From the NCBI RefSeq assembly GCF_025949665.1, contig NZ_JAPDFT010000001.1, positions 496,001 to 560,000 on the forward strand: a DNA stretch of 64,000 bases. The letters run 5' to 3'. This stretch comes from Chryseobacterium viscerum. Lineage in GTDB: Bacteria; Bacteroidota; Bacteroidia; Flavobacteriales; Weeksellaceae. This document shows positions 17,317 to 18,969 of this stretch, piece by piece. Both the position numbers and the translations under genes were made by a program. The notes beneath the pieces are model-generated. The model was not told the DNA's origin. It did no database searches and was given only the letters and a program-made list of their open reading frames with translations. Positions within the stretch are counted from its first letter, which is position 1. The number at the start of each line of letters is the position of its first letter.

Positions 17317-18306
17317 ATGATACATTCAAGAAATAGAAGACTTAGAGTTAATGAATCTATCAGAAGTTTGGTAAGAGAAAATGTGCTTACAACTGATGAT
17401 TTTGTAATGCCGATCTTCGTAATGGAGGGCGAAAACAAGCAGGAGGCAATCCCATCTATGCCGGGAATTTTTAGGCGGAGTATAGATTTAACCGTGAAGG
17501 AATGTAAGGAATTATTTTCTTTGGGAGTAAAAGCTGTCAATTTGTACATGAAAGTGTCAGAAGATCTGAAAGACAATACAGGAAAAGAAGCCTGGAATAA
17601 AGACGGACTGATGCAGCGTACAATCAAAGCAATTAAAGATGCCGTTCCGGGAATGATTGTTATGCCTGATGTAGCTTTAGATCCTTATTCAATTTACGGA
17701 CATGACGGGATCATTGAGAACGGAAAAGTGATAAATGATGCTACCAACGATGCTCTGGCAAGAATGTCAGTATCTCATGCTGAAGCAGGAGCAGATCTTG
17801 TGGCACCAAGTGATATGATGGACGGAAGGGTACAAGTCATTCGTGAAGCGTTGGAAGAAAGCGGTTTTACAGACGTAGGAATTGTAAGTTATGCTGCTAA
17901 ATATGCGAGTTCTTTCTACGGACCTTTCAGAAGTGCTTTAGACAGCGCTCCGAAAGATAATATGGAAATTCCGAAAGATAAAAAAACATATCAGATGGAC
18001 TTCCACAACACCCGTGAAGCATTGAATGAAGTATTTAAAGATATTGACGAAGGGGCCGATGTTATCATGATCAAACCGGGACTTCCTTATCTGGATATCG
18101 TTTCTAAAGTACGTGAAGCCATTGACCTTCCGATTGCAGTATACAACGTAAGTGGAGAATATGCTATGGTAAAAGCGGCGGCTCAGAACGGTTGGCTGGA
18201 TAATGACAAAACGATAATTGAAAGCCTTACTTGCTTCAAAAGAGCGGGAGCAGACATGATCTTTACTTATTTTGCAAAAGAAGCTGCTATCCTTTTAAAT
18301 AAATAA
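17317..18306 (+). CDS. hemB: Delta-aminolevulinate dehydratase (porphobilinogen synthase)
   Basis: 329 residues. Condenses two 5-aminolevulinate molecules to porphobilinogen in heme synthesis. The two Schiff-base lysines are Lys195 (YAAKYASSFYGPFR) and Lys253 (VIMIKPGLPYLD). The cysteine-rich zinc site of human and yeast enzymes is replaced by DVALDPYSIYGHDG with Asp in place of Cys, the pattern of magnesium-type enzymes. APSDMMDGRV is present. No other heme gene is adjacent. Terminates before the small double-glycine peptide gene without a clear hairpin. Confidence 0.97.
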   Translation: MIHSRNRRLRVNESIRSLVRENVLTTDDFVMPIFVMEGENKQEAIPSMPGIFRRSIDLTVKECKELFSLGVKAVNLYMKVSEDLKDNTGKEAWNKDGLMQRTIKAIKDAVPGMIVMPDVALDPYSIYGHDGIIENGKVINDATNDALARMSVSHAEAGADLVAPSDMMDGRVQVIREALEESGFTDVGIVSYAAKYASSFYGPFRSALDSAPKDNMEIPKDKKTYQMDFHNTREALNEVFKDIDEGADVIMIKPGLPYLDIVSKVREAIDLPIAVYNVSGEYAMVKAAAQNGWLDNDKTIIESLTCFKRAGADMIFTYFAKEAAILLNK

Positions 18307-18388
18307 AGGTAAACAATCTTGATCCGGACACCAACGTTAATGTTATGTTAATGGTCTGAATGGATGACTTCCGAGTAAATAAAAAAGT

Positions 18389-18396
18389 TACTTTTG
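18389..18396 (+). promoter_or_regulatory. -7 box TACTTTTG upstream of the double-glycine peptide gene
   Basis: Exact TAnnTTTG match, 54 bases before the ATG at 18451; no good -33 TTG. It suggests the peptide gene has its own promoter. Confidence 0.5.
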
Positions 18397-18450
18397 AGTA
18401 AAGCTAATTTCGAGAAACGAAAATAATTAAAACATCAAAAGAATTTATTT

Positions 18451-18597
18451 ATGAGAAATCTTAAAAAGATTGAAAGAAATCAATTGAAGGAAATCAAAGG
18501 AGGAGAAGTGATTATTGATGATCCGAATTGCGGAACATGGTGCAAAGGAATCTGGCATCCATGTACAATTAATCATTTAGCTTGTCCACCGGACTAA
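18451..18597 (+). CDS. Double-glycine-leader, Cys-rich peptide precursor (bacteriocin-like)
   Basis: 48 residues, short and easily missed. The leader MRNLKKIERNQLKEIKGG has the features of GG-type leaders that are cut after Gly-Gly by peptidase-containing ABC transporters (C39): basic start, LxxIxGG end. The predicted core is 30 residues, starting EVIIDD and containing four Cys (27, 31, 38, 45; spacing C-X3-C-X6-C-X6-C), two Trp and two His, with an acidic start. It resembles the bacteriocin-like peptides often seen in Chryseobacterium. Flanked by its own promoter box and a strong terminator. No C39 transporter, modification enzyme or immunity gene is adjacent. Activity unknown. Confidence 0.8.
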   Translation: MRNLKKIERNQLKEIKGGEVIIDDPNCGTWCKGIWHPCTINHLACPPD

Positions 18598-18611
18598 TCA
18601 TTTCAGTATAA

Positions 18612-18650
18612 AATAAACAGGCTGTTCTCACCGAACAGCCTGTTTTATTT
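18612..18650. terminator. Strong bidirectional terminator after the peptide gene
   Basis: Stem of about 13 bp (18615-18627 with 18633-18645, core ACAGGCTGTTC / GAACAGCCTGT), five-base loop, A-rich left and T-rich right side. Serves the peptide gene and the convergent TM2 gene. Confidence 0.92.
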
Positions 18651-18675
18651 TCAAACGGACAGGTGGTTTATTATT

Positions 18676-18969
18676 TTATAACCAACCTTTTTTACCGTAA
18701 ACGTAAGTATCATCAAACTGCTTATCACTCATGAAAAGATATAAAATACCTTCAATAAAAGGGATAACAGAAGCTGCTCCTAAAGTAACAACATTCAGAA
18801 CCAGCTGGATGATTCCCTCTTTCGTATATCCCAGATAAAATTTATTTAACGCGAGCCAGCCTACAAGAATTCCCAATAAAGCTGCAGGAATTTTCTTTTC
18901 CGAACGGTAAGGAACGTTGCTTTGCTGGTTTTCTGCATTTTCTGTTTTTGTGTAACCGTAATTTTCCAT
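18676..18969 (-). CDS. TM2 domain-containing protein
   Basis: 97 residues. A polar N-terminus of 28 residues with KTENAENQQSN is followed by a TM2 domain: IPAALLGILVGWLALNKFYLG forms the first helix with the conserved NKFYLG turn, and IIQLVLNVVTLGAASVIPFIEGI the second. These two-helix proteins occur in many bacteria with unknown function. Convergent with the double-glycine peptide gene. Confidence 0.85.
   Translation of the reverse strand: MENYGYTKTENAENQQSNVPYRSEKKIPAALLGILVGWLALNKFYLGYTKEGIIQLVLNVVTLGAASVIPFIEGILYLFMSDKQFDDTYVYGKKGWL

Follow-up and report, generated by a model that had tools for sequence, protein, structure and literature searches.

A gene for a 48-residue double-glycine-leader peptide with four cysteines lies at 18451-18597 on the forward strand of the window, i.e., the whole stretch of 64,000 nucleotides from Chryseobacterium viscerum analyzed here. 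The open reading frame (ORF) is confirmed as a real gene. Judging from its sequence and that of its relatives, the product is probably a secreted, disulfide-bonded peptide that is trimmed and exported by a shared C39 machine; antagonism is the likeliest of its possible roles, though a speculative one. This orphan small gene and nearly sixty others like it appear tied to one specific export and disulfide-forming machine, and could be tested together by a single gene deletion. If the peptides are active, the genus secretes disulfide-rich peptides in large and little-explored variety, and gene-neighborhood mining would overlook them because most do not adjoin their exporter.

The peptide gene and its surroundings

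The ORF was recovered at exactly the positions given by the original prediction and translates into the leader MRNLKKIERNQLKEIKGG followed by the core EVIIDDPNCGTWCKGIWHPCTINHLACPPD. The GG-type leader and the 30-residue core with a C-X3-C-X6-C-X6-C pattern, both claimed earlier, are present as described. The 18-residue leader (18451-18504, forward strand) ends in Gly-Gly, with C39 cleavage predicted after residue 18; residues 1-18 match the NCBIfam model NF047798.1 (leader_Chryseo, bacteriocin-like protein) with 30.8 bits, above the curated cut-off of 23.5. The model has 18 positions and covers the leader only, and its name and description give neither an exporter nor a tested function. As the leader is already an NCBIfam family, the window gene constitutes a new member only; since NCBI has a model for the leader, its annotation may well include the gene already. 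The acidic core (18505-18594, forward strand; calculated net charge -3) carries the cysteines at positions 27, 31, 38, and 45 (seen in an alignment of 20 sequences), and its predicted monoisotopic mass is about 3342.47 Da in the oxidized form with two disulfides and 3346.50 Da in the reduced form.

Of the 91 ORFs of matching size in the six frames of the window, the window gene alone encodes a GG-type leader and therefore exceeds chance. Against a leader HMM trained on peptides of its own genome (the window peptide included), it scores 32.0 bits, compared with 2.6 for the next-best ORF. A Pfam search of the peptide gave no match over threshold; PF10439 (Class IIc bacteriocin) reached 12.1 bits over residues 1-35, below the gathering score of 27.1. 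No match to the sequences of solved structures was found at E <= 1, and the AlphaFold model is too poor for use (pLDDT 60, pTM 0.26). Phage origin is unsupported, as PHROGs gave no match at E <= 1. A zinc ribbon identity is likewise unsupported: the Pfam match (14.1 bits, cut-off 29.1) spans residues 7-28, mostly in the leader.

The peptide is matched at E <= 1e-5 in 45 of 148 Chryseobacterium genomes, while intact orthologues with at least 70% identity occur in only 21 of them (its own genome included; read by eye and recounted). A more distant relative (53%) is found downstream of hemB in G118. For the 19 orthologues located downstream of hemB (G080 and G100 omitted), dN/dS is 0.091 overall, 0.073 in the leader, and 0.099 in the core (0.036 in hemB); the orthologues are under purifying selection. 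In these 19, the hemB stop and the orthologue start codon are 132-146 bases apart; in G080, an additional ORF lies between hemB and the orthologue (L294). Leader residues L4, K5, K6, L12, G17, and G18 are invariant in 20 aligned sequences, and across the window orthologues and operon paralogues (20 aligned) the residues G17, G18, C27, G28, C31, P37, C38, H42, and C45 do not vary. The leader and the four-cysteine pattern are hence kept in relatives, and the lack of conservation that would have spoken against the prediction was not observed. A scan of named organisms gave 17 loci. Eleven relatives of full or nearly full length and three fragments of the core all come from Chryseobacterium; the rest are a match to the leader only, a match of 45%, and a short match in Hyphomicrobium. 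The hosts include C. sediminis, C. rhizoplanae, C. culicis, and C. jejuense.

It is hardly credible that the ORF is not a gene or is a decaying relic. Downstream of hemB in G088 (L132), G124 (L127), and G110 (L061), the core persists and the leader is gone, so that some lineages are losing the gene; its intact state in 21 of 148 genomes, the dN/dS of 0.09, and the conserved terminator argue against this reading.

The Bacteroidota -7 consensus is TAnnTTTG. The putative promoter box TACTTTTG (18389-18396, forward strand) fits it and is kept in 14 of the 19 orthologue upstream regions; the remaining five read TATATTAG at this position. Of the claim that the gene has its own promoter box, the fit and the conservation stand, whereas the motif by itself is weak evidence, since it occurs at chance frequency (77 times in the window versus 82.6 expected). 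No sigma-70-type promoter was detected on the forward strand within 18300-18720. Downstream, the very strong terminator claimed earlier corresponds to a hairpin at 18615-18645 with a 13-bp stem (fold z = -6.7), in the interval that separates the peptide gene from the convergent TM2 gene. Because it is detected on both strands, it may also serve the latter. The hairpin is readable, with altered arms, in the aligned downstream regions of the orthologues.

The upstream neighbor is hemB, encoding delta-aminolevulinic acid dehydratase (17317-18306, forward strand; PF00490, E 3.6e-137), to which the peptide gene is not thought to be functionally linked. The convergent neighbor encodes a TM2-domain protein (18676-18969, reverse strand; PF05154, E 9.8e-11). 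With these two genes as neighbors, neither a transporter nor a maturase adjoins the window gene, in agreement with the prediction; no immunity gene and no sensor gene were recognized beside it either. Immunity proteins are frequently unrecognizable from sequence. The TM2 gene was considered as a partner or immunity gene and rejected as a fixed partner, as each is found without the other: it is present in 75 of 121 hemB-downstream stretches, 52 of them without a peptide match, and G022 and G100 have a peptide match without a TM2 gene within the fetched stretch.

Another family of GG peptides, whose core (MKKLTKKDLKNINGG...) is unrelated, is found downstream of hemB in 37 of the 121 genomes (e.g., L147 and L294:1058-1237), on the strand opposite hemB in every case listed. 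GG peptides have thus settled at this site repeatedly.

The candidate exporter operon and the peptide repertoire

The absence of any C39 peptidase from the genome would have counted against the prediction; a PF03412 search revealed two C39-peptidase ABC transporters (C7:21417 and C1:2313299). The closest paralogue of the window peptide (C7:23662-23805; 56% over 48 residues, E 1.7e-15) is located inside the operon of the former (G000:C7:19699-25200, read in L069), which encodes, in order, a VKOR and Thioredoxin_4 fusion of 504 residues, the C39-peptidase ABC transporter (731 residues), the paralogous peptide (64 residues), and an HlyD-type adaptor (432 residues). The window gene therefore appears to be an orphan copy of a peptide gene linked to an exporter. 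The leader of the paralogue scores 20.8 bits against NF047798.1, under the cut-off of 23.5. In the ABC protein, the expected C39 motifs contain Cys16, His90, and Asp107, which we take to be the active-site residues, and the VKOR-thioredoxin protein contains the cysteine pairs C256-R-V-C259, C175/C189, and C368-G-F-C371. In 38 of 148 genomes, one contig carries both a C39 domain and, 2.0-2.5 kb away from it, a relative with 47-58% identity; 19 of the 21 genomes with an intact orthologue also hold such a C39-near relative.

The second C39 exporter is matched at E <= 1e-40 in only nine of 148 genomes (its own included) and was rejected as the general exporter on this basis; it may still serve single peptides. 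About 2 kb from this C39 ABC/HlyD pair (L070:6241-12429, G000:C1), on the other strand, lies the gene for a 224-residue protein that has a DUF6973 domain and begins with a GG-like N-terminus; this protein is possibly cargo of the pair. Two more VKOR-like proteins, with about 30% identity to the operon VKOR, are encoded at L278:7014-9603 (G000:C3) and L279:7197-9885 (G000:C2). Each has next to it a GG-type peptide rich in cysteines and a protein of the GLPGLI family (TIGR01200); the two stretches contain no C39 transporter, the PF03412 matches being located elsewhere.

The leader model gave 60 matches at E <= 10 in the own genome, 35 of them over the cut-off. Two matches inside long ORFs were discarded, so that the search for other GG peptides proposed with the prediction yielded 58 readable small ORFs, the leaders of 23 scoring under the curated cut-off. 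By comparison of the cores only, the 58 peptides group into 48 clusters; the cores appear mostly unrelated and Cys-rich. The number of cysteines is 4, 6, or 8 in 57 peptides and 5 in one, and thus even in 57 of 58 (p = 2e-16); 47 of the 48 clusters are all even (p = 1.7e-13). As a control, at least four cysteines after residue 18 are found in five of the 91 size-matched window ORFs. The cores are net negative in 40 of the 58. The peptide genes are scattered singly or in small clusters, and no second C39 exporter was seen in nine of the surrounding stretches, whose larger ORFs were judged by eye. A regulatory motif common to these genes was sought and rejected. Only TAnnTTTG looked enriched, occurring upstream of 13 of the 58 genes (mononucleotide shuffles: mean 4.0, sd 2.0, maximum of 500 shuffles 11), and 45 of 58 are without it within 110 bases. 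The sole peptide with an odd cysteine number (G000:C4:264828-264881) has five-cysteine relatives beside the operon in two other genomes (L255 and L256), and perhaps forms a dimer or carries a free thiol.

Comparison of 45 operons (the own genome and 44 others) revealed the gene order VKOR, zero to four peptides, ABC, zero to three peptides, and HlyD, with peptides preceding VKOR in L259 and L260. HlyD was found in 44 operons; for L257, the fetched stretch stops close to the ABC gene. Between VKOR and HlyD, 35 of the operons encode one or more GG peptides, some of them short or degenerate, and the other ten encode none. Among the 78 peptides in or beside the operons, 54 have six cysteines, 17 have four, and seven have 0, 2, 3, or 5; with four odd numbers and three of 0 or 2, the even rule is looser here. 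At E <= 1e-3, nine of the 58 cores of the own genome find counterparts among the peptides located in or next to the operons of other species. In seven cases, as read by eye, the counterpart is encoded between VKOR and HlyD. These cases comprise the window peptide, the peptide of the own operon, and four other orphans, whose homologues there are close (69-87% identity over 26-31 residues); the seventh match is short and weak.

Of the 148 Chryseobacterium genomes, 136 have the leader family, 139 the VKOR protein, and 145 a C39 domain. All 136 genomes with the leader family are among the 139 with the VKOR protein, and none of the nine without this protein has the family (Fisher p = 3e-12, a value that is too small because the genomes are related); the association of the leader with any C39 domain is weaker (p = 4e-4). 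The hemB tree, a single-gene tree with weakly supported branches, covers 121 of the 148 genomes, among them 11 of the 12 that have no leader; G052 was scored as VKOR-less. It requires eight changes for leader absence and seven for VKOR absence, and the absence thus seems to have more than one origin. The VKOR-positive genomes without a leader are G029, G089, and G052, the VKOR match of the last being distant. In G029 (L253) and G089 (L254), the VKOR-C39-HlyD operon is present and no leader_Chryseo peptide was found in the genome; outside the large genes, no small Cys-rich ORF was seen in G029, and one antisense-looking ORF with three or more cysteines was seen in G089. In a survey of 246 genomes of the family, the leader was found in 107 and the VKOR protein in 111. 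Outside the genus, our own count in the same survey gave 16 genomes with the leader, 19 with VKOR (some matches distant), and 13 with both; the three leader-only genomes have weak matches (E 2e-4 to 6e-4).

The 56% paralogue inside the operon and the joint absence of leader and VKOR across the genus support the earlier suggestion that the window peptide may be an orphan substrate of a shared exporter. Export of the window peptide via the operon at G000:C7:19699-25200 appears highly probable on these grounds. Counting against the overall reading are the 23 leaders under the cut-off, the peptides with odd or low cysteine numbers, the ten operons with no GG peptide between VKOR and HlyD, the operon-bearing genomes that yielded no leader, and the restriction of intact orthologues to 21 of 148 genomes. 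The 18-residue leader would steer the peptide to this exporter, whose C39 domain would cleave after Gly-Gly. The 30-residue core would leave the cell by an ABC/HlyD type I route and some outer-membrane channel, and the VKOR-thioredoxin fusion encoded in the operon would probably oxidize its four cysteines, giving two disulfides. The window gene represents an orphan paralogue of the operon-resident peptide and one of 58 readable leader peptides in its own genome.

Possible roles of the exported peptides

Antagonism of related bacteria, as exerted by bacteroidetocins, is the likeliest role, although this is a guess with somewhat less than an even chance of being right; the lack of a recognized immunity gene and the predominance of net-negative cores speak against it. 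The former would suit an exported signaling peptide (a pheromone or induction factor) that uses the same machine and is not a weapon. The conserved core (dN/dS 0.10), the acidic cores, and a sub-threshold match of the leader to EntF, an induction factor for bacteriocins (17.3 bits against a cut-off of 35), are consistent with a signal, but the EntF match is restricted to the leader, no sensor gene was recognized beside the window gene, and 58 peptides with mostly unrelated cores per genome would demand many receptors. Such a signal is rather unlikely.

A secreted peptide that is not antibacterial (an enzyme inhibitor, a metal ligand, or a component of the surface or matrix) is unlikely as well. 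The four cysteines together with the invariant His42, the acidic cores, and again the unrecognized immunity gene fit this possibility; however, the even cysteine number and the VKOR-thioredoxin partner favor disulfides, and the zinc-ribbon match of 14.1 bits mentioned above is below its cut-off and mostly in the leader.

A bolder picture would give Chryseobacterium an arsenal in the manner of conotoxins. Dozens of peptides, each framed by disulfides, would share a conserved leader but have unrelated cores; their genes would be scattered singly or in small clusters, and one dedicated VKOR-C39-HlyD machine would export them all. Peptides would enter and leave its operon between species, and each core would have its own target and no linked immunity gene. 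This picture is speculative and rather doubtful.

Comparison with known systems

No paper naming the leader family, or describing its large repertoire in the title or the start of the abstract, was found in the open-licence literature. Nor did this literature yield an account of a dispersed repertoire that depends on one VKOR-C39-HlyD operon; such a repertoire is rated as a variant of the C39-exported disulfide peptides. The window peptide resembles C39-exported double-glycine peptides in its GG leader and short core, and the genome encodes a C39-peptidase ABC transporter. Class II microcins of Gram-negative bacteria have a GG leader and are exported by a C39 ABC transporter with an HlyD-type adaptor. 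The Chryseobacterium system shares these three elements but differs in its disulfide-type partner enzyme, its dispersed repertoire, and the lack of a recognized adjacent immunity gene.

Two ribosomally synthesized and post-translationally modified peptides (RiPPs), chryseobasin (ChrA) and chryseoviridin, are known from the same genus, and their precursors are likewise small and, in ChrA, Cys-containing (PMC10214503, PMC8939145). The window core could similarly be modified by an enzyme encoded elsewhere (to a thioether, heterocycle, or graspetide) and then exported. This is improbable: no maturase was recognized at the window locus, nor in the paralogue operon apart from the VKOR-thioredoxin protein. 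The two known peptides need DUF692 or ATP-grasp maturases, and ChrA ends in a CPACGMG motif that the window core does not have.

According to PMC6671954, bacteroidetocin loci comprise genes for a GG peptide, a C39 ABC transporter, a transmembrane protein, and usually a thiol oxidoreductase; deletion of the thiol oxidoreductase or transmembrane protein gene reduces toxin activity. The peptides are described there as having a leader of 15-16 residues ending in GG, four cysteines in the core (at least two), and no obvious immunity gene, and as killing Bacteroidales; the two that were studied have net charges of +2 and +6. Measured against this description, the window leader is longer (18 residues), the gene is located away from the exporter and flanked by hemB and the TM2-domain gene, and the core is acidic (-3). 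Chryseobacterium genomes encode many peptides each, and their operon contains HlyD and a VKOR-thioredoxin fusion. Given the leader length, the gene location, and the 40 of 58 net-negative cores, the window peptide is not filed as a bacteroidetocin. The GG leader, the four cysteines, and the lack of an obvious immunity gene are common to both, as are the C39 ABC transporter and the thiol oxidoreductase, found here in the paralogue operon. Given this locus composition, with a GG peptide, a C39 ABC transporter, and a thiol oxidoreductase, and given the effect of the deletions, the bacteroidetocins constitute the known system that would work most alike.
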